Shown here: positions 3,114-56,600 of the stretch, piece by piece
How positions within the stretch are numbered: position 1 is the stretch's first letter
How the letters are laid out: every line of letters starts with the position of its first letter
Assembly: GCA_017558005.1 (NCBI GenBank)
Contig: JAFYWN010000030.1
Coordinates: 1-64,000, forward strand
Length of the DNA: 64,000 bases
Direction of reading: 5' to 3'
From: Kiritimatiellia bacterium
GTDB lineage: Bacteria > Verrucomicrobiota > Kiritimatiellia > RFP12 > DVOR01
Translations under genes and position numbers: made by a program
The notes under the pieces: model-generated
Databases searched by the model: none
What the model was told of the DNA's origin: nothing
What the model saw: only the letters and a program-made list of their open reading frames with translations

Positions 3114-3157
3114 AAGTGTATTTTAACATATCCACCTATGGGAAAACAAGAAATCTC

Positions 3158-3203
3158 ACCACGGACTAAAGCCCGATGAACGGGCGGAGCGCAGCGCGCT
3201 CCT
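3158..3203. repeat. REP-like repeat, copy b
   Basis: The copy reads ccacggactaaagcccgatg followed by aacgggcggagcgcagcgcg and ctcc. The second hairpin (ggagcgc-agc-gcgctcc) is perfect and the first is degenerate. It lies just upstream of the transposase start. Confidence 0.75.
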
Positions 3204-3224
3204 GGAGACACTGTGTGGAAAGCT

Positions 3225-3279
3225 CGCCACGGGCTGAAGCCCGATGAACGGACGGAGCGCAACGCGCTCCTTCTGACAG
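3225..3279. repeat. REP-like repeat, copy c
   Basis: It begins gccacgggctgaagcccgat and continues with gaacggacggagcgcaacgc and gctcc. The first hairpin (gggctgaagccc) is perfect and the second has a one-base change in the loop. It lies 21 bp from copy b in the same orientation, a pairing like those in BIME-type REP clusters. Confidence 0.78.
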
Positions 3280-3375
3280 GACTGCCAGCGTAGGGAAAAC
3301 CACAGAATACACAGAAGACACAGAAAGAGCGCTGCGCGCAGGAAGAAGGGTGAAGGAGGGTGATGTGGGGGCGCT

Positions 3376-11189: not shown

Positions 11190-11320
11190 ACGCGCCTTTT
11201 TACCCGGCCGGGGGGCATGCCTCTTAAAGCAGTAAGAAGGAGTGCATGTAATCAGCCTCACCACGGGCTGACGCCCGATGAACGGACGGAGCGCACGCGC
11301 TCCTTCTGACATGCGCCTGC
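11190..11320. repeat. REP-like repeat, copy d
   Basis: This copy matches 1882-2008 including the flank cctcttaaagcagtaag. The core is ccacgggctgacgcccgatg followed by aacggacggagcgcacgcgc and tcc. It lies about 9 kb from the transposase, between psd and the TatD-family gene. Confidence 0.75.
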
Positions 11321-22371: not shown

Positions 22372-22472
22372 GCACTTTTTTTACATCTCTTCACAATCAT
22401 TTAATCCCTCGTCCGCCCTCCCCTCCACCTACTTCTCCCTGCCACCCGCTATCTAGAGTGGCACCAACCAAC

Positions 22473-22490
22473 GGGGACGCTGCGCTCCCC
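22473..22490. repeat. Family-E hairpin (ggggacgctgcgctcccc)
   Basis: The hairpin GGGGA-n-GC...GC-TCCCC recurs at 37017, 37557 and, inverted, at 36320. A degenerate form occurs at 37898. It is typically preceded by 'ccaaacaac' or a similar string and followed by cgctcccctcgcg or similar. This is a second REP-like family, distinct from the copies near the transposase. Confidence 0.65.
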
Positions 22491-22521
22491 GCTCCCCTCG
22501 CGAGGCCTTCTCCCATCTCCT

Positions 22522-28900: not shown

Positions 28901-31900
28901 GCGGCATCCGGCGCGATGGAAATCGAGTGGTTGGCAATGTTTTCAAGCGCATTGCGACCCGTCATTTCCACACGCCAACCGCCAAGATTGGTATTCGCAG
29001 GTGCGCAGATTTCCACGAACTGCTGCGTCGAGGTCACCAGTGCAGAGTTTGTATTATCCGCAAGGTTAAATTCGTTAATGAAGGCTTCACCGGGGAGGTA
29101 AGCGTAGACCCAGAAGTAAGGCGAGAAGAATGCCGTCGTCTTGGGATTGGCCTCCGTGGAGGCCTTTTCACGCAATTCTGCATTGAGGCTACGCGGGAAG
29201 TACCACGGGAATTCCGTGTAGTCCACCGGACGAATCTGCGCATAGAACCACTGGTCGCTTTCTGCGCTCTGATAGACCACCCATGCGTTGTAACGCACCA
29301 AGCTATTCGCCGGCAATTCACCCAAAGACAAGGGTGCAAGGTCTGCGTAATAGTTTAAGGTGTCTGCATCCGCAGGACGCTTCAATTCAATCGTATTCTC
29401 TAACCCGAAGTCACCCACTGCAGGGTCAAATGCCGCGTCATTCAGTTTCTGCTGAATTGCCGTGTCATCAAACCATGCCGAGAGGGGCCAACGTTCCAAA
29501 TTCGTCTGATCCCATGTGTAGATCGGATGGTCGCTTTCAGCCGAAACTTCACCTCCGAGTACGTCAGTATACGAATACTCATTAGTAAAGGTGCGCAAGA
29601 GCGATCCCGACGCATTCGGATCCACGCTATGCGGATTCACCGTCAAGAAGACGCGAATCGAATCGGTCTTCAACAACTGTGCACGATCGAGATGCAGCAT
29701 TGCACGGAGCGAAGCGCCCTGCACTGGCTGCGACAAGGGCGAGCGAGCATCAAATTCTGTAGGCACATTATTGCCTGGCATATTCGAGAAGGCAACAGAT
29801 GCCACGCGAATCGAGGGCAGTACGGGGTTGGCAATTGCCACTTGGTCAATCAAGACGCGACCATAGCTCGGCTTTTTCCCAAAGCCATCATCGGTCGCAC
29901 CATCCCCATTCACAAAGGCGCGAAGCGTCAGACGGCGAACCTCTGCGCAGTTGAAAGGATAACCCGCGTCACCCGTACCAGGCGTACCGTCGTCATTCGG
30001 CGTCGTGTAGTAGTGCTTGTACTTGGAGAGGTCAATTTCATAGGTGGTGTAGACCGTATTGGTCACATCCACATAGGTAATCGGCTTCAAACCAATCATG
30101 TCATCCGAGTCATCCGTCGTCGCATTGAGATAGAGACGGACGGGTTGCGACTGTGGCGTCGTGAGGCGAGCGGCAAAGGTCACGAGTCCTGCACCTTCGG
30201 GCAGAACAGGCGATTCCAACACCGTCGTGGAATACGTGCCTTCGGTGTCGATACCGTTCGTTACATTATTCAATTCCATGCCACGCGTGAGCGAACTCTT
30301 TTCAGCGAAGGAGGAGTCTTCGGTTTCGGGAGGCGTGGCGCCATCCGTCGCAAGACGATCCTTCCAATAGAGATTATTCACAGGCGTGGACGAGACGCGC
30401 ACGTTCTTCGCCGTCCAGGAGGCGGAGGAGCCTTCCTTATTATCGGTGACGCGCACATCATCCAAGTAAACGTAGGGGTCATCCTGGTCGGTCATATCCT
30501 GAGAGATGACCATCACCAAACGCATGGTACCCTTCGTCGCCACGAGCTCCTTGAATTCCTTACCATCCCAGAATCGCGGCAGAATGGTAGTCAGCGCCCA
30601 TTCGCCATTCGTATTGCGCAATTCAACAGGGTCAGAGACATTTTCCCACTGGTAATCCTTGGGGCCACCCGTCGCACTCAGGAAGGTGTCGTACGGACCT
30701 CTATCCACAAATTGGAGCATCACACGTACTGGCGGCATCTTATTCTGCTTGCCAAATTCATCGGTAGCAGGGATGCGATAACGGAAACTGACGGGACCAT
30801 AACCATCTGCAGAGTAAGGCAGATAGAGCGCCAATGCGCTACCGGTGTGCTTAATTACACCCGTGCGCCCCTCGGTCTCAGTTTCCTTAAAGCCTTCGTC
30901 GTTATTCTGACGCGAACGCTGCATTAAGAGGACCTGCTTGCCCGTGTAACGCTCTGGCAACACATTGAGTTGCGATTCGTCTTCGGGGCGAATCCACAGA
31001 CCCACACCAGAGAAGCCTGTGGTCGGAGAGAAACCGAGGTCTGTGTGCACAGGCACATTTTCTGTGCCATTACGAGACCCATCATTTCCGCGCCAAGAGG
31101 TGAAGGAGATATCATCAAGCAAGACATTACTCTCATCGTTTGACGGGATAATTGTCACCTCTGCATCGGTCATACCGATGGTCATCTCAAAGGTTTGGTC
31201 CATCTTGCTCGTAGCAAAGACCTTTTCCACTTTGAACTTTTCATTGGTGCGGCTCTTTGCGGTCACCGTAACGCTACAAATCTGGTCTGCATTCGGCGTG
31301 ATACGTTGCAACTGCAAACGTCCAGAAGTGCTCGTCTTCTTCGTCCACGCCGGGCGATCAGCATTTGTTCCTGCGATAAAGACATCGACTTCATCTGGCG
31401 AGAGCGGCGTAAAGGCCTTTTCGCCATTTGTATTGGCACCCGCCTGCGACGTGGAATTCACCTGCTGGAAGAGCGGGCGGCATTCAGCCGACCCCAGTGC
31501 CATCCAAAATTGCTTCGTTGCATCGGTCAAGGGCTCACTGGAATAAGCCACCGTATTCAATGCATCATTGCTTGAACCGCCACGCTGACCCAAGGCAATG
31601 CGACCATCTTCACGCACCCACAAGCCATAGGTCGTATTCACCAATGTCTTGCCCGCTTCATAGAAGCTCGCCTTAGCCCCATTGTTGGTCAAGGTTAACG
31701 ACTGACGCGTCGGCTTACCACTGGACCACTTGTAGAGTTCCATCACGACGACGTCACGCGGCTCCTTCGTCGTGTCATCCTCAAAACGCATCACCTGAGA
31801 AACGCGCAATTCGTAATACACCAACTGACGCGGACTCATGTAGTCAATCAAGTAATACGACACGGAGTAACCCGAAGGTGCGCAATCTTGTTGGAGATTA

Positions 31901-34848
31901 GTAAATTCAACCCCCGCAGAAAGCCCGCGCCCTGTAATATTCAAACTCTTGCCATCGGCAGAAACCAATTCGGCAATTGAACCAAGGTCATAGGGCAGTG
32001 ACGCGCTCAACTTAAAGCTCAGCTTACCCACGCCATTCAGGTTAATCGAAACATTACCATCGTCTCGCGGTGCCAAGGTGCCACCACCACCCCGCAGACG
32101 GAAGAGGGCATCTGGACGGTAAATCGCGCCTTCGTAGGTGTAACGACGACGGAGGAGCACCTCGGTGTTTGCCCCCATCTTCAAATAGTCCGAGTAGTCC
32201 GACCCCATGTCGCCCTCTGCGCGCAACCAATCTGGCTCGGCTTCATCGGGCGAAGCACCCCAAGAGGCGAAGGCCTTCGTTTCCGTCACATAGGAATCTT
32301 CACGCAAGATAAACGCAAACTCACCTGCCTGTTTCAAACGTCCAGTGAGCAGCTTTTCAATAAAGGAAGTCGTATTTGCCAAGGGGCCTTCATCAGGAAT
32401 CCACCCGTTCATTTCACCGAGCCCACTCACCCCAGGCGTGCAATCAAAGTCTGCCGTGGCAGAGGTGACGTTTTCACGGAATTCCGTTTCCACAAAGCGT
32501 TCGGAGGGATCCCAAGTGTTGAAGTCTTGTTTGAAGGAGCCCGCCAAGTGCGCAACGGGTGCGTCAGGATTGGTGAAGTCAAGCTCCACCATCAGGTGTG
32601 CATTCGGGATGGTATCCACCGCCACAACCACGGGCACGGTCGCCGCTTCAGACTCTGCCTTAACAAAGGTTTCGGTTACAGAGGGAACAACTTCTACTGC
32701 GTTCGGACGCAAGGAGGAGGTGGAGACTTGAAGGTTCTGACCATACCATGTCTCTTTTCCTTCCTTATCTACAGCGCAAATCTTAAAGGAGATAAAACCG
32801 GCCTCACAGATGTCATCGGTCGGATCCGTTGATGTCTGGTCGTCCTCTTCGCGTTCGTCACCCCAAGCATACACAGCGGAGGGTTCTTCATGGCGCAACT
32901 TCTTTTCAAGGTCCACGCGCCAGGTGTTCTTCGCCTTCGAGGAGGGCAAGAGCTGCGCATCAAAGTAATCGAGGTCGTAGTTCTTTTCAGAGGTACCCGT
33001 GCGGTAGGTCACGCGCAGGAAGACCGACTCAGCAACGGCGGGTTGCTCACGTACATTTAATAAATAAGGATGGTGAATCGACTGTAGGGGGTTGGCCGGA
33101 TCTTCTGTGTCATAGCCGTCCAACGTCTGCCGAATCGTTTCAAATCCATCAATGTTCTCACGGCCCGCTTCGAAGGAACCATAGACGCCGCAGTCCACTT
33201 CCACATCGTAGACCCCTGCCAACATACCCGTCAAGCGACCATTCACATCGGTAAAGAAGGCGTTTTCACGCACATTCACCGTGCCATCAGCATTCGTGAT
33301 GAGGACACCGGGGGTGAAGTTCGCCGTCAGGGTGGCATAGGCAGTGCCTTTATCCTCCGCGACCGTCGCCGGCACTTCATACCATGCACGGGCGCTATCC
33401 CCTGCGGCGCGACGACGGAAACGGAATGCGCCTTCATAACCGCGCGGGGTTTTCGTCGTATCAGAGACGGGTTTCACCGAAATCTTTGTCGTGAAGGCAC
33501 TTCCTGCGTGGGGTTCAGCGCTATCATCACGCTGGTCTGCTAAATCCACCCCCAACGCGCTAAAGGTGGCCTCAGGTTTCGCAGAGCGCACCAACAAATC
33601 GCGAATGATGTAGGTGAGGCCATTTGCCACGTCACTGACTGCATAGGCTTCGTTGAGACGCACAATACGGAAGCGTGCCTCCGCATTTTCTGGCAAGTTG
33701 TCAAAGTTGACCGTATAGGTCTTAAAATCAGCCGTCAGGGTGATGGTTTCAACGTCCACCCACGCATCATTCACCCATGCCTGCACGAGTAATTCTGCAG
33801 GCACTTCGTCCTCATTCATAAAGGTGCGTGCCTTAAAGATAATGGAGGAGACGCCATCGGGATAGACGGGAGATTCCACACGTGCAGCATCGGAATAGTC
33901 CGTCTTCGTGCGCGCCACACTCAAGAGGTGCAAGCCCGCATCGCCATTCTGAGAACTTCCAATCGCACCGTTGTAAATCTGCCAAGAACCATACTTTTCG
34001 GATTCAGCGATTGCCGTGTTCTTGGAAATCATCGGCATTGAGGCGAGGATGTAGGAGTCATACTTGCCCATCAACACCTGAGAGGAGGAATCTAAGTGTT
34101 CAGACTCTGTCCCCTGAGGCGTCCAAAGACGCACATCCTGGAAGCTCATCTTACGGCCATGGTCCTGAATATCGGAGATGCGCGCCACAGAACCCAAACC
34201 ATAGCGGGAGGCAATAAACCATTCATAGGTCGCTTCACCTCGCAGGAGTGAGCCCACCATCTGCAAGGTCGGGTCCGTCGTGGAGGTCTTCAAGGCATCC
34301 GTCACCAAGATGGGTGCCGTGAGATAGGTCGCTTCCCAACGTGCCGGATTGTGCGCCATGCCCACGCCGATGTAGTCCACGGTGGTCGTGTCTGATACTG
34401 CAGTCAAATTGAGGTTCGTCGGCTCAAGAATCGAGATCTGCTCATCGTCAACCTGCGGCATCGGATAGTAAGCACTCGTTGCCGGTACTCCCGCCGTTTC
34501 ATCAGTGTACGGAGCATCGCGCGTAAGCGTGAGCGAACCGTCAAAGGCAGTGGAGGGACCACGATGTTTACGGAACATCACACGTGAGGGCGAAGCATAC
34601 ACCGGAATCGCACCATAGCGATTTGATGTTCGTGGCACACTCACGGTCACTTTCAACCGCACCAACGAGGTCGTATCCGTTACCGGTCCACCCGTCTTGG
34701 TATTAAGTGTGCCATCACCCGCATCAATCAACGAAAGCGCGTAGGAAACGCGTTCTTCCTGTACCACACCCTGTGCTCGCGCGGCGAACCCGTAAAACAG
34801 GCTCGCCGTAAGGAGGAAAAGGGCTCCGAGTTTAAATTGTCGCTTCAT
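22921..34848 (-). CDS. Giant secreted protein, 3975 aa, three repeated modules
   Basis: The product starts MKRQFKLGALFLLTASLFYG with cleavage likely after ARA, so it is exported. No enzyme motif was found. Three copies of a module are seen near residues ~1905, ~2650 and ~3365. Each runs WY-x-P ... P[YF][FA]W/YxY followed by [IL][NS]E (for example YLPGEAFINEF, PPEAAWLSEV, PQGGVWINEI). The first resembles a lamin-tail domain (QFVEICAP...LGGWRVEM). Jellyroll-like stretches recur: VESPVYPDGVSSIIFKAR (~328), LESPVLPEGAGLVTFAAR (~1549) and LLDDISFTSW. The C-terminus has a DLNGDGCVVLLG loop and ends FFRAALWSVDQ. I see no LPXTG, PEP-CTERM or autotransporter barrel. The start lies 6 nt after the pseudopilin stop, with no clear Shine-Dalgarno, which implies coupling. 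A surface or matrix role is inferred. Confidence 0.85.
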   Translation of the reverse strand: MKRQFKLGALFLLTASLFYGFAARAQGVVQEERVSYALSLIDAGDGTLNTKTGGPVTDTTSLVRLKVTVSVPRTSNRYGAIPVYASPSRVMFRKHRGPSTAFDGSLTLTRDAPYTDETAGVPATSAYYPMPQVDDEQISILEPTNLNLTAVSDTTTVDYIGVGMAHNPARWEATYLTAPILVTDALKTSTTDPTLQMVGSLLRGEATYEWFIASRYGLGSVARISDIQDHGRKMSFQDVRLWTPQGTESEHLDSSSQVLMGKYDSYILASMPMISKNTAIAESEKYGSWQIYNGAIGSSQNGDAGLHLLSVARTKTDYSDAARVESPVYPDGVSSIIFKARTFMNEDEVPAELLVQAWVNDAWVDVETITLTADFKTYTVNFDNLPENAEARFRIVRLNEAYAVSDVANGLTYIIRDLLVRSAKPEATFSALGVDLADQRDDSAEPHAGSAFTTKISVKPVSDTTKTPRGYEGAFRFRRRAAGDSARAWYEVPATVAEDKGTAYATLTANFTPGVLITNADGTVNVRENAFFTDVNGRLTGMLAGVYDVEVDCGVYGSFEAGRENIDGFETIRQTLDGYDTEDPANPLQSIHHPYLLNVREQPAVAESVFLRVTYRTGTSEKNYDLDYFDAQLLPSSKAKNTWRVDLEKKLRHEEPSAVYAWGDEREEDDQTSTDPTDDICEAGFISFKICAVDKEGKETWYGQNLQVSTSSLRPNAVEVVPSVTETFVKAESEAATVPVVVAVDTIPNAHLMVELDFTNPDAPVAHLAGSFKQDFNTWDPSERFVETEFRENVTSATADFDCTPGVSGLGEMNGWIPDEGPLANTTSFIEKLLTGRLKQAGEFAFILREDSYVTETKAFASWGASPDEAEPDWLRAEGDMGSDYSDYLKMGANTEVLLRRRYTYEGAIYRPDALFRLRGGGGTLAPRDDGNVSINLNGVGKLSFKLSASLPYDLGSIAELVSADGKSLNITGRGLSAGVEFTNLQQDCAPSGYSVSYYLIDYMSPRQLVYYELRVSQVMRFEDDTTKEPRDVVVMELYKWSSGKPTRQSLTLTNNGAKASFYEAGKTLVNTTYGLWVREDGRIALGQRGGSSNDALNTVAYSSEPLTDATKQFWMALGSAECRPLFQQVNSTSQAGANTNGEKAFTPLSPDEVDVFIAGTNADRPAWTKKTSTSGRLQLQRITPNADQICSVTVTAKSRTNEKFKVEKVFATSKMDQTFEMTIGMTDAEVTIIPSNDESNVLLDDISFTSWRGNDGSRNGTENVPVHTDLGFSPTTGFSGVGLWIRPEDESQLNVLPERYTGKQVLLMQRSRQNNDEGFKETETEGRTGVIKHTGSALALYLPYSADGYGPVSFRYRIPATDEFGKQNKMPPVRVMLQFVDRGPYDTFLSATGGPKDYQWENVSDPVELRNTNGEWALTTILPRFWDGKEFKELVATKGTMRLVMVISQDMTDQDDPYVYLDDVRVTDNKEGSSASWTAKNVRVSSTPVNNLYWKDRLATDGATPPETEDSSFAEKSSLTRGMELNNVTNGIDTEGTYSTTVLESPVLPEGAGLVTFAARLTTPQSQPVRLYLNATTDDSDDMIGLKPITYVDVTNTVYTTYEIDLSKYKHYYTTPNDDGTPGTGDAGYPFNCAEVRRLTLRAFVNGDGATDDGFGKKPSYGRVLIDQVAIANPVLPSIRVASVAFSNMPGNNVPTEFDARSPLSQPVQGASLRAMLHLDRAQLLKTDSIRVFLTVNPHSVDPNASGSLLRTFTNEYSYTDVLGGEVSAESDHPIYTWDQTNLERWPLSAWFDDTAIQQKLNDAAFDPAVGDFGLENTIELKRPADADTLNYYADLAPLSLGELPANSLVRYNAWVVYQSAESDQWFYAQIRPVDYTEFPWYFPRSLNAELREKASTEANPKTTAFFSPYFWVYAYLPGEAFINEFNLADNTNSALVTSTQQFVEICAPANTNLGGWRVEMTGRNALENIANHSISIAPDAADVTAETSKTILSPDMGAVPYQRKVATSAARGFYTAISEYNKVYYRDAAGTPQTQLKKTKNGGVVQQDVDRVSIGSGAQAASIRLHRPTGGAEHIVCFSLNTETNLIPSTSDSPSLKNLDAIYTKYRDGYAQAGFGGEWFQTFTTGTWEDFVADTNPDAFGNKEALPAKMHARRLVKADKFIADPANDNRFATTATGAAYVTDIAGTVFANSIATVDMGGIFVTRKNAINEDVVNGPLDLTDVMTGTWPATINPTVQTRITEPGDGTGVAPVVQVTPCQINPDQYLILYSGIGAGSVTSELEGHFGSHTLERFGTDTNGGEVSLGVNAAGRVSPQTWVLSQEVTKTKLTYTAFPFHLVKSVTFRLKDAEDASKVITDLDELKAAIVEISGGAIDEATFTTEGWITVVPTAGAAEVSVTTFTLKPNTLEEKRYSVEAKATFEIDPTGGKAREVITNVRPYCGEGSEAFPLSDTAKYQPWWGSNFGFKVDYDTQVLDGSAILSGVIVTYPSPTANARTAWNVQEATWTGAKAVEYTDPVTNAQVMKTLEGMEYTEAKALLNEVFVPTVGTRYVELRSGELNADGSGFYADASAVAVLSDAYAKAAGYDGTAATADKKEPAIPFCVWGVYTVTVQTANGNEKVSFLMRQAMPAPVWQVPAWYAPAQVDGAALPYFYLYSTPPEAAWLSEVNLYQATGDEAPFAEVTFPVLREGITNASVPAAEPSGWTVRRYNDAGVNTETVDVATGTQTPSGALSYAYYTVDIAQVDAEDPIAYVLHRPCGAAEGGVWTAVTQNGGDQIVPTLQDAWLVAESAYVVPGVSDAVDVAGSVQLVGQTLFRELGSTGYKMECISSAVKDRTVWAFAETTKGTDNNDLPPDNKPVWNQVTVTSTLRNAVYAGTTCGYQLVPGAFEVEGTPGETDPISLTLGGAEWVYNETLDGFVLSYRPRTGYYFESITLPAELIGKVMLIGNPGALTRETILNRATELKNWAETDPAIKTTEWLTLEGRATVEMQQGEPTGRILFNADYSEGVNQEGEPITFADRDNYVISLLIMEEPISAQNSIEVTFTQGEVKVGAWMITQTLYALTDDGTGVLMPDSTKGGDTTLKPIWSDENGNKDGKYANRHGWIYQPLVGDKVGMSAVINPDLGLQGGRLGDATELLTADMPSVRPFLVWTAIPKSKVPTNLFDTSLTNNGMPRNEFISQWGLNAWLGSPSVQDGVTLSLDTLRRNLKKGNALYSNAGIIPMTYVGYCDANSDLQAGAIEDEKRAADTLLAFRTITADELATAKQNSATTGISDELPDAENPRLDYTSEIDMTDELVWQDGAVLRFAVVIADAVSGTVYDCQSISNFSSEAMEVYCPWYIPDAQTNINRATSAADAGGGVSPFAWIYSIPQGGVWINEIRPFALPAGEKRVASAFELAMYASPLKEDVSDPANPPKTFTPTRSLDGWKVITRYAPMPTMNADPATPIEWTTHKEVPLHSWVPYRRIVMPGYQGSYDLDYYMATVDPVKDQTVDFDSTASILTDAYRSASYTYADGTVNPKFQWLNFDITDKEAGKDADLFNAGLEETLLEEGGYNNGVLYSIALVRNNGAVEDAVLFYNQLPKGYGEDGYTYYAKCVNVAVESELLNKTTVGMVRAYAKRPLRSSGEAYTAQFLKFTNVYGTSSLLWEVISNDDGRMYSTLSAQNKWEVPGGNQSGYSYKQPYLEYAAQDAHFATIGATLTGGGSEAKLKLTAAAGTEVDEGTSVSVKVPMGTDYQLDLENLNEEWYALNKATRNGSDFAPKYTPATTYAFNAATQTYATSASLLIDKDLVTENLFYNLTYSYTEKALALSARGELASKDPRFIAWLEQVSPEAVAGLSDAEGTTASERYWLGATTPDEVVDPALAFTHIGTYYDLTQPDVEAPLVKVLLSKAGTPDRERITDLNGDGCVVLLGKKSLEDAEWDFIMKLEDGVDGDLLETSEIIISGKDEYKFFRAALWSVDQLPVTTVTP

Positions 34849-36868: not shown

Positions 36869-37016
36869 GTAGAAATAAGACACATTTTCTCATATTTTCT
36901 ACCGATTGACAAGCTTTTTCCTGCAGTCCAAGGATACCCCTCGCGAAGTCCTTCCTGTCCCACCTCTTCACCACCTGCACGCCTGCCATCCGCTCTCTAG
37001 CGTGGTGCAAAACAAC

Positions 37017-37034
37017 GGGGACGCTGTGCTCCCC
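37017..37034. repeat. Family-E hairpin
   Basis: ggggacgctgtgctcccc, with the same flanks as the other copies (aacaac before, gctcccctcgcg after). Confidence 0.6.
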
Positions 37035-37117
37035 GCTCCCCTCGCGCCCACACCCCGCACGAAGCATCTCTCTCCCCTCGCACCCAGCCTTCTCCTCTCC
37101 CATAGACCCGCCGCCCG

Positions 37118-37412
37118 CCTTCATCACTCCGCGTCACCCTCACATATCTCACCGAAAGGTGAGGAGAAGCACGTCTCTCTCCAGAGTGTCACCAAACAAC
37201 AAGGAGAAGGATCTTCTCCATAGAAGGACCCCAGAGGAGTCTGCGGCGCAGCCGCTTATCTATCCCTCACCTATCTGAGCGGCAGGCCGTTGCCTGCCTT
37301 ATCTATCCAGAAGCGAGAGTGGCCATCGGAGATAGATGAGACGGGCAGCAGCCCGTCTATCAGATAGATTACGGATAGATTAAAGATAGATTATTTAGCC
37401 AGCCCGCACCCC
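37118..37412. repeat. 295-bp repeat, copy 1 (family D)
   Basis: This segment is nearly identical to 44177-44471. It starts cttcatcactccgcgtcacc, contains a short hairpin caccgaaaggtg and a second gcggcgcagccgc, and ends agcccgcaccccag. Its right half is the structured unit at 37258-37380. Just past it (37401-37502) a sequence repeats that lies to the left of the other copy (44128-44230), so the two loci share three blocks in a different order. Confidence 0.9.
37258..37380. ncRNA. Structured element, copy 1 (outer stem and three hairpins)
   Basis: The ends atctatccctcacctatctg and cagatagattacggatagat pair with three mismatches. Inside lie GGCAGGC-cgtt-GCCTGCC, then ATCTATC...GATAGAT, then GACGGGC-agca-GCCCGTC. 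I type this as ncRNA only because of the predicted fold; a non-autonomous mobile element is an equal possibility. No transcription evidence is available from sequence. Confidence 0.4.
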
Positions 37413-37556
37413 AGCCGCCATCCCATCACTCCACACTCCGCCATCAGCCTTCATCACTCCGCGTCACCCTCATGGGTCTCACCGAAAGGTGAGGAGAAGC
37501 ACCGCCATCCAGCCCCACCTCTTCGCCATCCACTCTCCAAAGTGATGCCAAACAAC

Positions 37557-37574
37557 GGGGACGCTGCGCTCCCC
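37557..37574. repeat. Family-E hairpin
   Basis: ggggacgctgcgctcccc, identical in the core to the copy at 22473. Confidence 0.6.
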
Positions 37575-37711
37575 GCCCCCCTCGCGCTCACCTCGGTGAT
37601 TCACCTCTACCTTCCCTCACACACCATCCCTCTCGCCCCACCTCGATGCCCCGCGAAGGCATGACCCTCGAGAGACCGCACCCCCGCCCCCCTCGTGGCG
37701 CCACTCTCCTT

Positions 37712-43788: not shown

Positions 43789-44127
43789 CACCCCCTCTTC
43801 CTCGCCCAGAACCCTCGCGAAGCCCTTCCAGCCCCTCTCCACCACCCGCACGCCAGAGAGACACCAAACGACGGGGACACCCCCGAACCCCTCGCACCGC
43901 CCCGCACGAAGCATCTCTCTTCCCTCTTCCACCGCCCTCTCACCTCGACGCCCCGCTTCTGCCTCTGTGACAGTCAAACCCTCGGCTGGTGAGGACTGTA
44001 GGAGGCTTTCAAGCCCACCTTCCATACGGCCGTGAACAGTTCAACCCATAAAGGTTCTGCGGCCTTCGTTCCGCGAAGGCATGGCCCTCGAGAGACCGCA
44101 CTCCCACAACCCCACAGCACCTCGCGT
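43789..44127. other. Intergenic repeat debris
   Basis: There is no gene. The DNA is C-rich on the plus strand and contains degenerate pieces of the family-E flank (caccaaacgacggggacac near 43861 and again at 44528) and the string ccgcgaaggcatggccctcg at 44070, shared with 37651. Confidence 0.55.
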
Positions 44128-44471
44128 AGCCCGCACCCCAGCCGCCATCCCATCACACCACACTCCGCCATCAGCCTTCATCACTCCGCGTCACCCTCAC
44201 AGGTCTCACCGAAAGGTGAGGAAAAGCACGTCTCTCTCCAGAGTGTCACCAAACGACGAGGAGAAGGATCTTCTCCATAGAAGGACCCCAGAGGAGTCTG
44301 CGGCGCAGCCGCTTATCTATCCGTAATCTATCTGAGCGGCAGGCCGTTGCCTGCCTTATCTATCCAGAAGCGAGAGTGGCCATCGGAGATAGATGAGACG
44401 GGCAACAGCCCGTCTATCAGATAGATTACGGATAGATTAAAGATAGATTATTTAGCCAGCCCGCACCCCAG
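44128..44471. repeat. 295-bp repeat, copy 2, with left block
   Basis: 44177-44471 matches 37118-37412 almost base for base. 44128-44176 matches the block that lies to the right of copy 1 (37401-37449). Copy 2 therefore has block order A-B-C where copy 1 has B-C-A-B. Confidence 0.9.
44315..44437. ncRNA. Structured element, copy 2 (perfect 20-bp inverted ends)
   Basis: The left end atctatccgtaatctatctg (44315-44334) is the exact reverse complement of the right end (44418-44437). Between them three hairpins are predicted: ggcaggc-cgtt-gcctgcc near 44338, atctatc...gatagat in the middle, and gacgggc-aaca-gcccgtc near 44397. The fold would be cloverleaf-like on either strand. It may be a structured RNA, a MITE with terminal inverted repeats, or a DNA cruciform used by a protein. 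The type given here is provisional. Confidence 0.45.
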
Positions 44472-44631
44472 TCACCAGACTTACCTCATCACCCCACCTT
44501 CCATCTCTACCTCTTCACCACCCACTCTCCAGAGAGGCACCAAACGACGGGGGACACCCCCGCCCCCTCGCACCGCCCCGCACGAAGCTTCTCTCCCCTC
44601 TCCCTCTGCCCCATTCTCTTTAGATAAAACA

Positions 44632-44679: not shown

Positions 44680-47600
44680 TTAGTCGAGAGACTCAGTCAT
44701 CGGGGAGGCCGAGAGGATGACCTTGAAGAAGGTGGCCTGCTCAGTGCCATTGATGATGGCTGCGGAGGTCGGGATCTCAACCGCAGGGGTCTGTTCACCA
44801 GCAACCTTCACCTCTGCGAGCTTGGTCCAAGTACCACCGAGGGTGGCGGCACCATAGACGGAGTAAGTTGCAGAAGTGTTCTTGCCTTCAGCGAAGAGCG
44901 CAGAGAGGTCATAGATGTCGCCATCGAGGCCAACTGCACCAGTGACCGTCCAATTCAAGGTGATCACATCGCCATTGAAGGAGATCTTATTGACGGTGAG
45001 GCCGTAGGACTTCACACCCTGTTCGATGAGGTTGAGCGCCACTTCATTACCGAGGAGGTCAAGGAGTTCCTTCGCGGCAGCGGCGTCTTCCACGCCTTCA
45101 ACCTTAACAGCGCCATTTTCATCAGGTTCGCCAACAACGGTCAAACCGTAGAGCTGAGCACCGAATGCGGTGAGTGCGAGGTTACCATCGATATCCGTGG
45201 TCCAAATTGCGGCGCTCTGCTGGAAGTCAGCGAGCGAACCGCCGAAGGTGTTGCACCAACCGCTATTGGTAGAACCGTCAGGCAGGAAGCTATCAGACTT
45301 CTTACCACCCTGGAGCCATTCCCAAGCATCAGCGAGCTTGTCATTATCCGTATCCACATCCTGGATGTAGAATTCGGCATTCCAAGCGGCACCACTCGAG
45401 AGCGGCGTAACGGCGAGCGGGTCAAAGTAGAAGCCACCAACGGCATCCAAGCCCTGCGTAGCATAGCCCCAAGGTTCCCAAGCATCACGCTTACGGTTAC
45501 CATTCAAGTCGAAGTACGCCAAGAGGTAAACCGGGCGATTCGTGGCCAAGCCGCGGAGTTCCACATCGAAGCGCGTGGAGAAGAATTCATCCTTCTCTTC
45601 GCCTGCAACCGTCGTCTTCGTGATCTTATCCTTCACCATCTTCACGCAACGGTTCAACTTCGGGAAGTCTGCCAATTTAGGATCAGTCGTGTCATCATAG
45701 ACCAAGACATCCGTCGTCGATGCGACCGGGTTACCATTGAAGGAGCCCGAGTAGTGTGCTTCCACAACGAGGCTTCTGTAACCGAATTCCGCAGGCGTAC
45801 GGAGCACACCATTGTAACGGATGCGCGTACGGACATAGTAGGAATCCTGGACATTGAAGGACGTATCACGTGTGGTACCTTCAAGTTCGGCAAGGTTTTC
45901 ATCGCCGGAAGCATTCAACTGCACCTTGAACTTTCCGCTCATCTTCTTCGGCTTGCCGCAGTAAGGCTTGAGCGTAAGTTCGTAGCTGTACGTGCCGTCA
46001 CCAAACAGAGCGGTGCCTTCGGAATTGATTTCACCAATACCGCGCGGCAACTTGTAACGATAGACAAACTGTTCCTGTGCGCCCGTACCAATGGCCGTTG
46101 CCGAAGGCGTGACACCGCGGATGCCCGTCTTGTTGAAGACCGTCTTGGACTCTGCGTCACCAGCGCCATTCGCAGTCTTACGAATGACCAAGTCGAACTG
46201 AGGCACCTGGATATTGCTCTTCCATTCGAAGGTCAGTTCCGTATTGTGCACGAAGGCACCACCCACAGGGCTGACCATTGCCGTGCTTGCTTCATCAAGC
46301 GTGCCGAAGGCATTGGTAACCACAGCGATGTTGTAGGGGGCACGTTCCGGCCAGCTCGAACTTTCCGCCATCGTTTCAGGCAAGAGATAGACCTTATAGG
46401 AGGCCGCAACGAGGTCGCCACCCAGATCTGCGAGGCCACCTGCGGTATCTGCATTGTTGAAGATGTCATCTTCAGTGAGATACGGCTTCTTCACATTGAA
46501 CGGCTTCTTGAAGACCACTGCGCCAGGATTTTCCGTCGAAACCGTAGCACCAATGCGTTCATACGCAGCGAGGAGCAGATAGTAGTTCTGCTTGGTCGCG
46601 AAGAGCGACGGCTGCAACGGATTATTCGTAGACGGATTGAGAATGGAGGAGTTGTCACCCGCCACGACATCATTGTTTTCATTTTCAGTCAACAACACGC
46701 CGAGGATTGCGTCCACGTCCAAGCGAACTGCGCCAGCAGGAGCCTGTTCAGAGAGAGCAACGTGGAGGACATCATTGACCTGATCAAAGCCAACGTCCAC
46801 ATCGTGCTGATCGGGCACACCTGCAGGTTCGCCGTCATTCCACTTGCCATTACCATCAAGGTCAGCAAAGACGAAGAAGTTGTTCGGGCCTTCCTTGATA
46901 TGACCTTCGTCAGGGTTCACGAGCGTGAAGGTATTGGTCTGACCGGGCACCACGCCATAGCTATAGGTGGCGACACCAACGAACTCGGTGCGATCATAGA
47001 CCGTGATATTTCCTTCATCGTCTTCAAGCGAACCCTTATCCGGCCAATCTTCCGTGCTAGTGAAATCAAGCGTGAATTCACCCGTACGATAGTTCACCCA
47101 ACCAGCCTTACGACGTGCAAAGCCATCGCCAACCAGTTCGCCATTGCCATCGACCCATGTCACTTCTTCCATGGCATAAAGTTCTGCCACGTCATTCACA
47201 GAAGACGTATCGCTCAGGATATTGAAGTAACCGTAGTCTTTTTCGTCCGTCTGGTCTTCTTCATACGGCGTATCCACCGCCATACGCGTGAACTTAATCT
47301 TGAGCGAGCCAGGCTTGATGTTACCAATGTGGAAGTAACCCGACATCACACCACGCTTCCAGGCGCCAATTTCATACTCAATCGTGTCGCTTTCTTGACC
47401 GCCGGTCAAAGCGAGCGGCAAGTTGAAGGTCGCATCAGGGGCAGAGTTGTTGTTCTTCGCCGTGTAGGTGTGAACCACAATCTTCGCCTCTGCGGTTGCA
47501 TTGGTGTACACATTCTGGTTGCCGAAGTAGTCCACGGTCATGCGCAATGCAGGCGTGGGCATTTCAAGCTGAATCTTACCCGTCTGCGAAATGGTCGTGG

Positions 47601-50600
47601 CCGCATTCGGATTGGTCGAGTGATAACCAGAGCGGAAGTTTGCACGCGCTTCTGCCCAGTTGCTCCAACCATCATTATCCGGGTCAGCAGCAGCATCATT
47701 CGAGTCAACAGAAAGTTTTTCCGAACGATTCTTTGCTTCCCAATGATCTTCCATGAAGTCATTGTCCGTGTAGAGCAGACCAAAGGTGGGTGCACCACGA
47801 CGGAACCACATCGGAATCTGATAGTCCGGTACGCCGTTACCCACGGTGGAGTACTTCAACGGATTAGCGCTTGCGAGATGTTCTGCGTAGTTGGTGAGGA
47901 AGTCACCATCCTGATCGCCGTGCGGGCCATTAATGCCTTCCGGATCTTCAGGATCGAGACCATAGTAATTTTCCCACCAGTTCGGCATACGATCGCCGTC
48001 GGTATCCTTTGTTTGACCAGCAGCGATATTCTGCTCGAGCCAATAACCGCCCTGAGAATACTGCTTGTCATTCAACTTCGAGCCAGCGTCCTTACCATCC
48101 TCATGGCGGAACCAATCTGCACCAGCCGGACCATCGTTGGTCTTATTACCAGCGGACGGGTCGGTCGAGGGAGAATTGTCCCACGTTTCACGTTCATACT
48201 TCGCGAAGACGTCACCGTAGATCAAGAGATCTGCAGGCATCTGAGCCTGGAAGGCGGGACGGACAATGTAGTTCGGCAAGTCAAAGAAGATTGTGCCGTG
48301 GTACATGTAACCATAAGGATTACCCGTGGTCTTCACATTGTAAATCGGCGTAGCCGACAGCAAACCATCCTTATTCGGACGATAAGGCGACCAGTAGAAG
48401 GAGTTCGCCACCTTCAAATTCTCTGCAGAACCAGAAGGCATCAACAATTCAGGCTTACCATTCTCCAATTCCACCGGCTCGTACGGATGGAGTGCAGCGC
48501 GCTGCACGTCTGCGAGCGGCAAGTGTGCAACGGTATTGTGCGCCAACGGCACGAATTCAGTGATAGGATTCGTCACAGTGGCAGAATCCGCTGGGCGATT
48601 TTCAGCATACTGCGTCGAACGGAGACCCACAGGCGTCTTCACGGTGTAGTAAGAGGTGAAGAGTTCTTCCACCGTAGGAAGCGTAGCAGGCGTAATGTAG
48701 GCGTGTACGTCTGTAGCCGCCAAGGTCTCCTGGAAGCCCTTACGACGATACATGAAGGATCCGGGAATTGTCGCATCACCCGTGAGCTGATCGCCAGGGT
48801 AACGTTCCCAAGACTGCGACTCTCCATCAGTAGAGCCATCCTTACGCTTACCAGCGAGGAGGTCATTGAAGGTGTAGATTGCCAACGGCTCTGCAGGCGT
48901 GTTCGGCTCAAAGTAACCCACGCCAGCCTCACGAGCATTGAATGCACTCATGCGGAGGGTGAGCAGTTCCGTCTGCGTCAACGTGCGACCGCGCGCTTCA
49001 GCCACCTGAGCCATCGTGCGGACACCATTCCAGATACGCACTTCATCAATGAAGCCCTTAAAGCTCTTCGTGAAGTACTGATCAAATGTTGCAGCAGGAT
49101 TATCAAGGCCAGCGAACCAGGCCGGCGTCACCGTAGCACCAATGACAATCGGAGCCTTACGATAGGTGAAGCGGCGAAGGTCGTCATTCGTGCTCTTCAC
49201 AGAGATCACGCCGTTAGCAGGAATGAGGCTGCTCGTTTCAGCAGCAGACTCCACACCATTGAGCAAGAGTGCCAAGCGTGCGCCGTCATACGACACTGCG
49301 ATGTGATTCCATTCACCTGCAGCAATCGTTTCACCCGAAACCACTTCAGGCGATGCTTTAGGGGTGGCATTCTGACCATCAACCGTCGTACCAGAGCCCG
49401 TGAAGTAGGCGAAGGGCTTAAACACCGTGCCATCCTTGCGGAGACCCAACACGAAGTTGTGACGGAGCGAACCAGGTGCATCAAAGCCTTCATTGAAACG
49501 CCAGGGACGGTCAATAAGGATGACCTCATCGGAAGCCTGATCAGCATCGGGCTTGACCCAGCATTCAATGGTGAAGGTCGTAAGCATCTGCGGACCGAAC
49601 TGCGTATCTTCCATCGTCTGGAGCACACCCTTACCACCGAAGTAAGCAGCCTGTTCACGATCAGGCGTACGCAAGGTCTGAGGATCGCCACGGAAGATAC
49701 CATTGGAGGTGAGTTCCACCAAGTCGCTGATGCCATCACCGTCGGTATCATAACCTTCGTTAATTTCATACGGGAAGACAGAGTCCGTTGCGAACGGCAT
49801 ATTGTCACCCGTCACGCCGAAGTAGCGCACGGAGAGCTTCGAAGCGGAGGTCGGGAGCGGACCCATCATGCCAGTTTCTTCACCCGGCACTGCGAACAAC
49901 GGATTCATGCTCGTGTAGAAACGCGAGACGAAGGAGTTCACGTTGGCAGGGTCCGTCATCCAGAGCGGCGACGGGTCGGTGCCATAGTGCGCAGGAGCGG
50001 TCGTTACAGGATTGACGGCTTCTTCGCTATTCAAGAGGCCATCACCATCAGGGTCAGCAAAGGGCACACCCGCCAACCACGGATAGGTGTAGTAGTCAAA
50101 GCCAGTGACTGACTTGTTGTCTGCGAAGTCAATGTTGCCAAAGGCATTGCTCGTCGGCGTCACCATGGTATAACCAATGGAAGAATCGGCGGCGGGGCAA
50201 ATCGCCAAGGCCAAACGATTGACGTTGTCATAGTCCTGACCAACATTTTCCCATGCATCAAAGAGGAAGTCACCGAGGACGGGGTTGAGACCATGGAAGA
50301 CTTCAAAGTAGTCATCCATGCCATCAATATCGGTATCTGCGTCCAAAGGCGAGGTGGTCAACATGCTCTTGGCAGGTTCGTCCCAGCCCGGGAAGGCGTC
50401 TGCACCCAAAGGCGCAAGCGTACTATTCATCGGCGTACCGAGCAAGATACCCTTGTCTTCTGCCAATTCGTCCTGACGATCCGCGAAGGGCTTCATCAAG
50501 GCATGCCAGCCGGTCGGCACATAGAAGAGATCGCTCTGGTGAGGCAACAAGCCACCATTGAAGCCACGCATTGCAGCACGGTAACGTGCGCGAATCAACG

Positions 50601-53600
50601 GATTCGAAGAGGTTGAAACCGCTTGTTCGTATGCATCCATGCCTGCATCAGCAACCTCATCAAAGAGGCCCTGGTCACCCTGGGTCTTCTTCAAGACCTT
50701 CGCGACTTGCGACTTACGAGCTTCCCAAATCGTCTTGGTGTCACCCGTCACGAGATCCTTCATGACAGGCTGCATCAAGGCCTGATTCTGGACGCAGAAT
50801 TCAAGCGTCTTATCGATGATGGTCATCAATGCGCGCAACTGCTGCACACTCTTGGTGCGATAGTTGTACTTTTCATCATCCTTCTTCAAGATGGTCTCAT
50901 AGCATGAGTATGCCACATCGCCCGACGAGTAACTCGCGCCTTCATTCAGTGTAAGCGTAGTCAAATAACGCGTCCATGCCATATCGAACTGCGTAAAGAG
51001 TTCGGGCAGACCTTCAAGATAGCTACGCACCGTCACGTATGCCAAATTATCCGGATCGCAATTGGTCAAGCCATAATCTGCCAATTCATCTTCCGTCGGA
51101 TAAGCAATCGTGCTATTCCAAAGGTAGTTGTAAGCCTCAGTAATTGCATCTGCGAATTGCGTACGCACGTTCGAGCGCATCGGCGGATTAGGACCGGGCA
51201 AGTCAGAGGCGAGATCGCTATTTGCAATGCCCTGTGCCAACAAGCGGACCTGTGCAGGAGCGCCACGTGTATAACGCAACGTGGTTGCATCTGCGAGATC
51301 ATTCGCCGTTTCGGTGGCGACATAGGCAAATTCAGGAGAACGGCCCGTGGTGGGATTGACCAAGTCCATGGTGGCCATATAGACATCAGGGAGCTTCGTC
51401 CATTCCGTATCCAAATCACTGATTTCAGCTTCGCGTGCTTCACCTGTGAAGCCCTTGTACATACGCGCCATATCAGGACCGAGGTCATAACGGAGATGAC
51501 GCAACGATGCCGTCAAGTATTCCTGATAGTTGGTCAAGCCATCACCATCAGCATCCAAGTCAGCATCCGTCATGCGTTTCTGCGCGTCATCCACGCCAGC
51601 ACGTGTCGGATCGGGAGCCTGAGAGTAAACGATTGTGCAACCATTCACCGAGTACGTGAGGTTGTCAACATCTTCCTCACCCTCTTCAGCGGGCGGAACA
51701 ACCACAGCGACATCGCCTTCTGCAGGAGCACCAGCAGAGAGCGGTTCGAGGCCATAACGGAATTCCCACGCATCGGACATACCATCGCCATCCGTATCGG
51801 GGTTATTCGGGTTACAACCACCACCAGCAATGTGTCTCGAGGAGGGCAGACCATAGATAAACTTGCTGCCTTCATCGGCATCCCAAAGGCCGTCGAAGTC
51901 CGTGTCAGGATTCCAGGGGTCGGTCGGAGCGGTCTTGTTCACCCAACCGCTTGCAGCACCAGAGGCATATTCCTGAGCCGTGGTCAAGCCGTCACCATCA
52001 CCGTCACGGTCGCCATCATTAGGAATATTTGCCGAACGTTCTGCGCGAACCCCCACATAGCGTGCCCAACCATCCGGCACACCATCATCATTCGTATCAG
52101 CCTTCGTCGGGTCGGTGGGAACAACCGTCCAATCACCATTACCCATCTTCACCGAGGTGTTGAATTCTTCACGAGAGACGAAGGCCTTCGTGTGAAGACC
52201 ACCCACAGCTGTGGTAGGATCAAAGCCAAAGGCACGATAGACTGCATTGTCGCGGAGGATGCAGAACTTCACTCGTTCCAAGAAGACTTTGCGACCATTC
52301 GGCGCATCCGCAATCTGGGCAGGATCAACCTCATCCGCCTTAAGCGTCTCCCCAAAGTCCATCTCCGTGTAATAAGGCTTTTCCGCAAGCGGTGCTGCGG
52401 GATCAACGATGTAATATTCACCAGACTTTTCATTAAAGTATGCAACATCCGTAATCGCCGGAGCTGTCCGGTCTGGAGTGTACACCTTCTCAACAATCTC
52501 TTGATATTCCGGATAGAGGAAGACACCCGTGTGAGCGAAGGTATCGCCGTCGGGGTTCTTTTCTGCGTCGTTCGGTTCTGCAGGGTCTGCGGTGTTGAAC
52601 GGATCAAGGCCGTAGGTCACTTCCCAACCGTCCGGCATCCAGTCATCATCCGTATCGCATTCGATCGGATTCGTACCCACAGCCAATTCTTCAACCGTAG
52701 ACAAACCGTCATTATCAATATCTGCGGCACCATTGCCACCCGCACAGGGGTTAAAGAGGGCGAGGACATCTTCCACTGGGATGGGCTCCCAATAGTTGCC
52801 CTTACCATGTGTTGCGTTGCCAGGGTAAGACTTCACTTCATAAGTTTCACCCACGCGCGTTGCGTCACTATAGAAGCCAGCCTTCGTGTCATCAGGGTCA
52901 TAATTGTTTTTGTATCTACGACCCATCGTGAACTGTTCGGTGCCGTACTTGTCATAAGAGTTGATCTCTGTACGCTTACGCATGTCGATTGCAGGCCAAA
53001 GTGCCGTATTGAGCTGAATGCCTGCGTCATTTTTGAAGACCGAACCATAAGCGATACGAGAAGCATAGTACCAGAAGTAGTACTCTGCTGCGTTGACAAT
53101 GCCGTCACCATCGGTGTCCGCCGTAGCACCAGAGAAGCGGCTCAACCAAGAGGTCAAACGCGGATCAATGTAGCCGCCATTCTTCTCCATCTTGAACGGT
53201 TCGTCGATCAGCACACCAGCGATTGCACGCGTATCCACGAAGTGATAGGCGGTGTAACCATAAGCATTGTAGGTAGTACCTGCGTACTGATCCACGGGCA
53301 GGGCTTCCTTCGGATCAACCACTACGCCCTGGTCATCAGTCTTATACATCGCGGCGTTAGCTTCTGCCACCGTTGCGAAGGGGAAGGGTGCGCCAGCTTC
53401 AGTAGAACCCGCTTCCCAAGCAGTGCCATTCTTAACACCCCAATTATCATAGGTGTAACGGAAGGCTTCATAATTCTCGGAGTTCGCATCAACGCAAACC
53501 ATCATGTTGTTGGCGTTGTACTTGCCCGCCTTCGCCTTGATGGGATGACCATCGGCATCAATCACATATGCCCAGCCATCCGTCACGTCGTTCGCGTTAT

Positions 53601-56600
53601 AAGGAATCTTATTGGCCGCAGTAAGCGCCACCTTCACTCCTGCCACAGGAGAGGTCATTTGGGAGGTCAAGCGAACCTTATTCCAAACCACCGAGAAGTT
53701 GCCATTCACCACTTCACCCGCGCGAACAGCATAGGAGCCATCTTCAAGCTTTTCTTCCGGGTGGACCAAAACAACCCACGCAGGGATGGAGAGCCAATTG
53801 CCCGCGCCGTCAGCAGCATTCAATGCTTCATCGCGACCGCGGATACGCATCTTGTATCCGAAGGGTGCGCCTTCCAATGCGCAAGTCGTTGCGAGGCGAC
53901 CCGCAGAGGCACCAAACTTATAAGCAAGGTCCCCTGCCCCAAAACCTGCAACGGGAAGACGTTCAGCATCGCCGGGGAAGGCTTCTGCAATTGAACCACC
54001 TTCAACCAAGGTTGCACGCGAAGTTTCACCCATATTCTTTAAGACCCAACCATCCGGCACGCCATCCTGGTTGTAGTCACCCAGTTCGTACATGTAGGGA
54101 TTCTGCGTATCTTTGAGCTTTGCTTCAATTGAGTCGCCAGGGAGATATTCTGCCACGAAGATCGCGGAGAGCATGATATCCTGCCACTTCGTAGGATCCG
54201 TGGCTTCGCCTTCCTTGACATACGCACGATTGAAGGTCAACGTTTCTTCATAACGCTGATACTGTGCCTTTTCGCCAGACGGCAGGATTGTAGCGAAGTC
54301 TTCATCGGCATCCCACATGTAGAAGAAGGAGTCATGCGTTGCAGAAGGACCATTGAAACGACCCAATGCAGTAGCAGTTGCCGTATTCTGACGAGCACCT
54401 GCAGAGAAGGGCTTTGCAATCACCTTCAGAAGCGTTTCGCCACTTCGAGAGCGCGAATTACGCGTGCTATCCGTGTCAAACGTCCAGTTCGTCAAAACGT
54501 CTGCACCCGTATCCCAAAGCACATAACCAGCGCCAGGGGCCGTGAGGTTATGAATCGTCTTGAAGATAAAGTGCTGAGAAGCATCAAGAGTGATGGTGCC
54601 ATTACGCGTTGCCATCCCCATGGAGGAGTCAATCACCGTAAACATCCAGTCCTGCGAGGCACCGGATTCATAGGCATGCTTGAATGTATAAGACTGTGTA
54701 TCAATCGTACGGCTCACGATGGGCAAGGTTTTTTGACCATCAGCCCCCGCGTAACCATACAAGTCAACAAGGGTCGCATACTCTGCTTCCCAAGCGGCAT
54801 CACCGCGGAGCTTCTTCATCGCACCTTCGTCCACCAACAAGGCGGCTTCCTGGATGCCATCACCGTATTCCATAATCATCACGAGGTAATCGCTGGCGGT
54901 GTCGGCCACGGTGAAGGTGAAGGAGGCCTGCGCACCGGTAGCAACCTTCGTCGGTGCAGAGACATTGCGGATTGAAGGATCGCGGTTTTCAACAAACGGA
55001 GTAATCAAATTGCACTCGTCACCATCACCAATAATGGTGTTATTCGCAGCGCAACGCTTTGCCGTAAAGTAGAGACCGCCCAAGGGAACTGTCACACGCT
55101 GGGCAGGATTCTGGGGATCAAGAACGTTCACATTCGTCTTGAAGAGATCTTTGTATGCTGCGTAATCGTTCTTGCATCCCACATAGAACTTAACGCTCGT
55201 TGCTCCTGCGGGCACCAAGACGCGCACTTCCGGAACCGTGCCCTGCGGCGCGCTACCACCCGTTGCCTGAAGCGTGACATAGGATGCGATTAAATCGTAA
55301 GCATTCACATCCTTTGTCGTGTTGACAGCAGGATCGGGCTTGTAGGTCAAACCGGCCACGGTAGCGTTCGAATCCACTCGATACTTACCAGTGGCATCCG
55401 TCGGATAGATCAAGAAGTAGCGAGGATCATCAGAGGCTTTCACAGAAAGCGTGTATTCAAGCACGTTGAAGGAGCCCGGCGTCTGACCTGCCGTTGCATC
55501 CTTAGGCTGATAGTATTCAATACCAGTGCCATCCGTTGTGGCGCTTGCGAGGAGCGTAATCGATTCACGCTTCGGCAATGCCTTTACCATTAAATAATAG
55601 GGCTTATCAACCGTTCCTGCGCCATTTGCATCTTCCAAGCCAGGGACGCGAATGCGGAAATAGGTTGCACCAGAAGCATCCACCTCGCCTACCGACAAAT
55701 TGACCTTATAGTCACCGTCATATGCATCAATCGGCACGTAGTAACGTTCAAGCTTCGCACTTGCGTTATTCGCAGCAGAAACCATTTCAATGGAGGCGTA
55801 AAGCGTTCCCTTGTCAGCAAGATCCTCTTCGCCCTTCTTTGCAATCGTAACGAGCGTAGATTCGCCAGCGCCAAGCTCAATGATGCCATCCACGGGCACG
55901 CCATCGAGATTCGTATACTTCATTTCTGCGCCAGGAAGCGTCAGCGTATCACCGGGCTCCAAGTTCACACTACGAACCGTATAGCCCTTAGCCACATCTG
56001 GAATCGGCGTTGCAATGACATTGTAATCAGTATAAGCATAGACGCTCTTCACGTCTGGATCATCACTATAGATACCATAGCAGAGACGAACCTTCGTACC
56101 AGGCAAGCCCTTCGGAACGTTAACAAAGAACTTCTGTTCGGTGAATGCCACCTGATCCATACCAGAAAGTTCAGCGGCATAGTTTGCGGGGAATGCCGTT
56201 TCTTCGGTAGGAGTGCCAGCTTCAATAATCTTAGCTTGTTCGCCAGCACGCGAATTCAACGAGGTTACACCCACGTTGTAGTATTTGCCATTTGTATCTT
56301 CTGCCCAGAGGTAGCATGCGTATTCAGAAGGCACCACGGTGTGCACGCCACTCTCAGGCTTAATGGTTTTCACTGTTACAGGCACAAGACCTTCGTAAAG
56401 CTTGCCACGGTTCGGATTGTCACTGCCATCGCCCAACGTAATCGTGTAACCACTCACCGGCACAGCCGCATCAGTGTCAGGATCATCCACGTTACCTTGT
56501 AACACGCTCTTGACCAACTTCACTTTCCCTGCGCCATCCACGGGGTCAATCGCAGAGATCGTGATTCCGCCAAGGTCACCGCCCAGCGCCAAACCGCCAT

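Follow-up and report, generated by a model that had tools for sequence, protein, structure and literature searches.

A cloverleaf-forming repeat in a Kiritimatiellia genome: a probable REPIN-like doublet whose unit also flanks the gene of a REP-associated transposase with a predicted DprA-like domain

Introduction

What is the highly structured sequence at positions 44315–44437 of a contig from a Kiritimatiellia bacterium, and what could have placed its copies where they are? The initial annotation of the window—the whole 64,000-nt stretch of DNA that was analyzed—described a cloverleaf-like element with inverted ends, present twice, and considered a structured RNA, a mobile non-autonomous element, a DNA cruciform, and even a new element class. 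Here we ask what the repeating unit is, how its copies are arranged across the host genome and which gene is associated with them.

Results

The 123 nt at 44315–44437 have perfectly complementary ends and three hairpins inside, as first described; a check of the sequence and folding of the region as single-stranded DNA (ssDNA) agree on this. The folding energy is −42.3 kcal/mol for the plus strand (z −10.3; none of 200 shuffles is as stable) and −40.8 kcal/mol for the minus strand (z −10.3), against a shuffled mean of about −14.5 kcal/mol for both. The copy at 37258–37380 folds less strongly (−31.6 kcal/mol, z −6.9) because its outer stem is interrupted: among the outer 22 positions, 21 are paired at 44313–44439 and 18 at 37256–37382, which bears out the broken outer stem originally reported for this copy. 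The neighboring genes had been interchanged between the two copies, however; it is the 37258 copy that lies upstream of exbB (PF01618, 38097–38768), and the 44315 copy that lies between gatB (PF02934/PF02637, 42309–43733) and the second giant ORF (44680–57051, minus strand). Both giant ORFs of the window are on the minus strand (22921–34848, 3975 aa; 44680–57051, 4123 aa), and Pfam has nothing that matches the last 1106 aa of the second. More intergenic repeats (...CAAACRACGGGGACGCTGCGCTCCCCGC...) surround the cloverleaf at 22463–22503, 36986–37079, 37525–37591, 43834–43937 and 44510–44611; the first of these matches a flank repeat of the RAYT (a transposase type discussed below) at C14:28 kb, and the remaining repeats of the CAAACRACGGGGACGCTGCGCTCCCCGC type are alike by eye.

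The duplicated segment is larger than the unit first claimed, comprising 313 bp at 95.5% identity (blastn) on the plus strand at 44165–44477, with the first cloverleaf, and at 37108–37420. The second block in the window could have arisen by ordinary segmental duplication or by recombination between intergenic repeats, instead of by REP transposition. We regard this as only slightly less probable than its opposite, given that the shared block far exceeds the element and that a 65-bp part of it is found again at 37438–37502. Such an event would concern the two window blocks only, not the identity of the element, and would leave unexplained the nine single copies at other sites that are described below.

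A 341-bp query that includes the element gave about 30 matches in the host genome, many of them spanning only half a cloverleaf. The cloverleaf is one hairpin element of about 52 nt, present in two copies placed head-to-head (foot-to-foot). Each element runs from a GATAGATnA foot, through a hairpin with a 7-bp stem and an AACN loop (GACGGGC-AACN-GCCCGTC or GGCAGGC-AACN-GCCTGCC), to a GATAG tail (CAGATAGATTAyGGATAGATTA), in which GATAG occurs every 11 bp, two or three times. The right arm of the cloverleaf at 44315–44437 is a plus-strand unit at 44388–44439 (covariance model R1, 80.5 bits, E 1.2e-10, and alignment), made up of a GATAGAT foot, a GACGGGC-AACA-GCCCGTC hairpin and the tail AGATAGATTAC/GGATAGATTA. 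The left arm is an inverted unit with the GGCAGGC stem variant, on the minus strand at 44313–44364 (77.5 bits, E 4e-10), and the 23-nt spacer between the feet (44365–44387) is the apical loop of the central hairpin. A third tail repeat of the GATAG direct repeat family (AGATAGATTA, 44441–44450, plus strand) lies 11 bp past the second, and an additional GC hairpin (GCGGCGCAGCCGC, 44300–44312) lies past the inverted unit; a counterpart of this hairpin, GCGGCTCCGCCGC, also follows the GGCAGGC variant in arrays on contig C14. The second cloverleaf has its right arm at 37331–37382 (plus strand, 77.1 bits, E 4.9e-10) and its left arm, with a GGCAGGC stem and a diverged tail, at 37256–37307 (minus strand, 74.0 bits, E 1.7e-9).

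The covariance search of the genome that had been proposed initially does find further copies: 25 strong ones (E up to 1.4e-8) in the 2.05-Mb assembly, on nine contigs (C4, C9, C10, C11, C14, C21, C32, C36 and C37), with four in the window pairs. Twelve copies form six head-to-head pairs with spacers of 23, 26 or 46 nt, four belong to the C14 arrays, and the other nine stand alone (one each on C4, C10, C11, C21, C36 and C37, two on C9, and one at 146 kb of C14). An element "present twice" is therefore, at the level of the half-unit, present in 25 strong copies, and the cloverleaf does not hold as the unit, since 9 of the 25 are single half-elements and the outer stem is paired at 12–19 of 22 positions in the four pairs outside the window. 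The 20-bp outer stem exists because two tails face each other. The outer stem was considered as a conserved feature and rejected, as single copies retain the tail without a partner. The GGCAGGC variant was found in pairs only. The copies lie outside recognizable genes, the only overlaps being with an unannotated frame of 122 aa and with the part by which the RAYT frame extends upstream, and they occupy unrelated intergenic places in both orientations.

This distribution bears on the options offered initially, of which the mobile non-autonomous element fits best. A structured non-coding or cis-regulatory RNA, folding into a four-way cloverleaf on transcription, would be consistent with the very stable fold and with the compensatory changes in the inner stem. 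Yet the two strands fold equally well, single half-elements are dispersed in both orientations among unrelated intergenic places, and outer-stem pairing differs among the pairs, with 12–21 of 22 positions paired; further, the arrays flank a transposase gene on both sides, and the window's matches at Rfam gathering score are tRNAs only, with no Rfam family for the element. An RNA is very unlikely on this evidence. The long perfect inverted ends at 44315–44437 could instead recall a MITE of a DDE-type IS, with terminal inverted repeats and target-site duplications, and mobilized whole as double-stranded DNA. We find this scarcely credible, in that the nine single copies are one-ended and, when checked as had been suggested, have no target-site duplication, and the adjoining transposase is of the HUH type. 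The sole longer match, an apparent 9-bp repeat at one copy (L032), was rejected as a target-site duplication, being the tail matching itself. No clean empty site was recovered: a within-genome search with the shared 3′ flank CCATTTAYRAMGTA returned only occupied copies or unrelated matches. Five single copies (L033, L034, L035, L163 and L164) have GGACTGCAkrTG directly 5′ of the foot and TTAACCATTTAYRAMGTA 3′ of the tail, although in several cases the sequence farther out is not alike; these shared flanks may reflect a mobile unit longer than 52 nt, a larger copied segment, or a preferred target.

Compensatory changes, a further check proposed at the outset, are present in the stem and also in a congener, G010. 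Among 21 distinct copies, 94.6% of the stem cells pair and 8 cells have changed on both sides; in a set of 24 copies, which includes two from G010, 93.4% of cells are paired and 11 carry double changes, values that 0 of 500 shuffles reach in either respect, with the caveat that the sequences are related (from one or two lineages) and the counts therefore overstate independent events. The G010 stems are compensated as GCAGGC/GTCTGC and GCAGTC/GACTGC. Near the RAYT gene of G010 itself (L208), which encodes the type of fusion described below, neither an R1 element nor a clear GATAG array was found, so that its elements are left without an assigned transposase gene.

The C14 arrays bracket one gene, of 320 aa (L031:9143–10105), with repeat units at 8597–9028 and 10173–10404 of the same locus; the 5′ and 3′ flanks have a 233-bp stretch in common, at 96% identity. 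The protein scores just above the cut-off of PF01797 (Y1_Tnp) and matches NF047646 (REP_Tyr_transpos) at E 7e-13, its 48.7–50.6 bits lying under the curated equivalog cut-off of 80; NF047646 also matches 26 of 27 relatives at E up to 0.01. With a profile of these 27 relatives, Escherichia coli TnpAREP (4er8) is the top match among solved structures (E 5.5e-8), and the N-terminal part of the AlphaFold model (pLDDT 88.8) matches the same structure at Z 12.7. M-P-x-H-x-H (H86, H88), Y147 and N151 are invariant in the alignment of 27 sequences, and the frame is open with every catalytic residue kept. The C14 gene encodes a REP-associated (RAYT/TnpAREP) transposase of the HUH/Y1 kind. Because arrays of the element bracket it, the copies are REPs/REPINs; to speak of a new element class is too strong for elements that behave as REPs/REPINs beside a RAYT. 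Beside the array, the plus strand of L031 encodes at 7864–8433 a small protein ending in PEPTALALLALGVAGFALRRRA, a PEP-CTERM-like tail.

The C-terminal half of the transposase has no Pfam match, PF02481 included, the protein as a whole matching Y1_Tnp alone. In its predicted fold, however, the C14 transposase is an HUH domain fused to a DprA-like Rossmann domain: residues 162–320 of the model match DprA (Z 9.4–10.1) and ShosA (Z 11.0), and by profile the C-terminal part of the 27 relatives matches Helicobacter pylori DprA (E 7e-5). R202 is invariant among the 27 sequences. Its counterpart in the alignment with H. pylori DprA is the arginine of a GTR motif, which we take, from the chain offset, to be R52; that residue is a reported ssDNA contact (PMC4066776). 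PADLOC gives no match for the C14 protein, for its paralog in the window, or for a stand-alone DprA-like relative. The sole PF02481 (DprA) match in the roughly 90% complete assembly, at C10:20103–20282, is to a 120-aa SLOG-like protein, and a canonical dprA was accordingly rejected as the origin of the fused domain; such a gene may be lacking in the genome or only missing from the assembly. In congeners (L063, L067, L070, L073, L056 and L069) the DprA-like domain occurs in a seemingly stand-alone protein of about 190–260 aa, and the four of these proteins that were scanned have no significant Pfam match.

The genome harbors six genes for such RAYT–DprA fusions, each single-copy, the nearest pair being 53–56% identical. 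One of them lies in the window itself, on the minus strand at 2163–3113 (316 aa; HUH H79/H81, Y145; alignments). It has diverged from its C14 paralog, and its AF2 model matches 4er8 TnpAREP at Z 11.3, DprA at Z 9.5 and ShosA at Z 11.2. This paralog has its own REP-like family, GGAGCGC-aRc-GCGCTCC, with palindromes at 3151–3290 (plus strand) on one side and relatives at 1945–1999 on the opposite side; the family also occurs at 11257–11311 and on other contigs. Five of the six paralogs are each flanked on both sides by a hairpin type distinct for that gene (GGCAGGC/GACGGGC; CCAGCC-GGCTGG; CGGGGC-GCCCCG with GGCGCG-CGCGCC; GGAGCGC-GCGCTCC; and GTGAGCC-GGCTCAC). The sixth, on C15 and nearest to the C14 gene (53% identity), has only GATAG-rich flanks, in which no matching perfect hairpin of at least 6 bp was found, only an unrelated one (AAAAACTGCCGC). 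Further copies of the paralogs' flank repeats are present in other parts of the genome, more for some than for others.

Repeat bracketing is common, not universal. Among 96 related genes with usable flanks, picked by similarity to the C14 protein, 36, with all six analyzed here among them, share a 5′/3′ repeat that scores above the 99th percentile for mismatched flank pairs, and the other 60 do not. When relatives were instead searched with a general RAYT model, 29 frames matched, 11 of them with the C-terminal domain. A tree built from the HUH part places the fused proteins together with only moderate branch support (85/89), bar one intruding frame, L210_2; the C-terminal domain is present in a second frame at that locus, which points to a fusion gene broken by a frameshift. 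Related loci occur in Kiritimatiellae, Lentisphaerae, other Verrucomicrobia and Bacteroidales. In G043, from another family, the flank repeat of the fused gene is found at many places, mostly on its own contig.

Discussion

We conclude that the cloverleaf is, with high probability, a REPIN-like doublet of inverted REPs, and that the C14 RAYT with its DprA-like domain is the agent most likely to have spread it. In the broad sense the element and this gene are a REPtron: the HUH/Y1 gene is flanked by the repeats, short hairpins are dispersed outside genes, and the HUH motif and catalytic tyrosine are intact. As in the REP/REPIN–RAYT systems of Gammaproteobacteria (4er8; PMC2817692, PMC3116915, PMC8266576), the hairpins are short, extragenic and dispersed, in part as inverted doublets or BIME-like arrays, carry a conserved 5′ foot and flank a single-copy HUH/Y1 gene; the C14 protein also has a fold match to the E. 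coli enzyme of that group. Unlike them, the system described here has a GATAGATnA foot, a tail of GATAG repeats spaced by 11 bp and a predicted DprA-like C-terminal domain, and the GTAG of the REP superfamily foot is absent from the element consensus. Its 25 copies are few for a REP family, short of the more than 100 per genome that PMC2817692 gives as usual, not as required.

Other known groupings overlap with this system in part. The TnpAY1 classification, in the portion of PMC6006769 consulted, places REP-flanked genes in five subclasses and a large C-terminal domain in other, separate subclasses; the HUH/Y1 core is common to these and to the C14 protein, whereas REP flanks and a C-terminal domain are combined here, and a DprA-like domain was not found in that portion of the account. 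The RAYT-like genes of TIRYT/TIRtron systems are bracketed by inverted repeats unrelated to GTAG, in moderately abundant families (PMC3733652); here, by contrast, the flanks are arrays of short hairpins whose units also occur singly elsewhere. In IS200/IS605 elements the transposase gene is multiplied with its ends, whereas each of the six paralogs is single-copy. DprA (Smf) and ShosA share with the C-terminal domain a Rossmann fold, on predicted models, and the arginine that aligns with the ssDNA contact of DprA is invariant; they differ in that the domain here is fused to an HUH transposase and has no match to PF02481.

The copies and their dispersal, the layout in pairs and singles, the stem covariation, the gene association, the catalytic residues and the conservation of R202 are all observed, the two-domain fold is predicted, and from them we infer that the transposase mobilizes the repeats. 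The REP strand, when single-stranded, for example as lagging-strand template, would form its hairpin; the HUH domain would bind hairpin and foot, nick beside the hairpin via Y147, and transfer the strand to another place. The DprA-like domain would hold ssDNA and may pass it to RecA for annealing. The cloverleaf fold would then be that of two neighboring inverted REPs. An alternative, compatible with the REP identity and differing on present-day activity only, is that the copies are immobile relics that persist because they serve the host, for instance in stabilizing mRNA or in terminating transcription between genes. Their position outside recognizable genes, low number and divergence are consistent with this, as are the host roles proposed for REPs elsewhere (PMC3733652). 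Nonetheless, the C14 gene is open with every catalytic residue, and related copies with compensated stems occur in a congener; by itself, neither is a sign of movement, and we consider immobility rather unlikely.

Favoring a REPIN-like doublet with a RAYT as its agent, we more tentatively suggest, at somewhat less than even likelihood, that these genes represent a distinct branch of REP mobilization in PVC bacteria and Bacteroidales, in which cleavage of the hairpin strand and delivery of ssDNA to recombination fall to a single protein, an HUH transposase with a DprA-like domain of its own, and each paralog in a genome maintains a private hairpin family. As far as we found, the repeat family and the DprA-like domain of the transposase are new, and the kind of system is already known; the open-access papers searched contained no earlier report of this repeat family or of a RAYT–DprA or HUH–DprA fusion.

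The spread of REPs is poorly understood. A REP transposase cuts and joins hairpin ssDNA in vitro (PMC8266576), and the mode of copy insertion is open. A natural RAYT–DprA fusion hints at a recombination step in REP spread and supplies a testable protein. Six diverged paralogs in a 2-Mb genome, five of them with distinct hairpins, also provide a natural set for the code of hairpin recognition.
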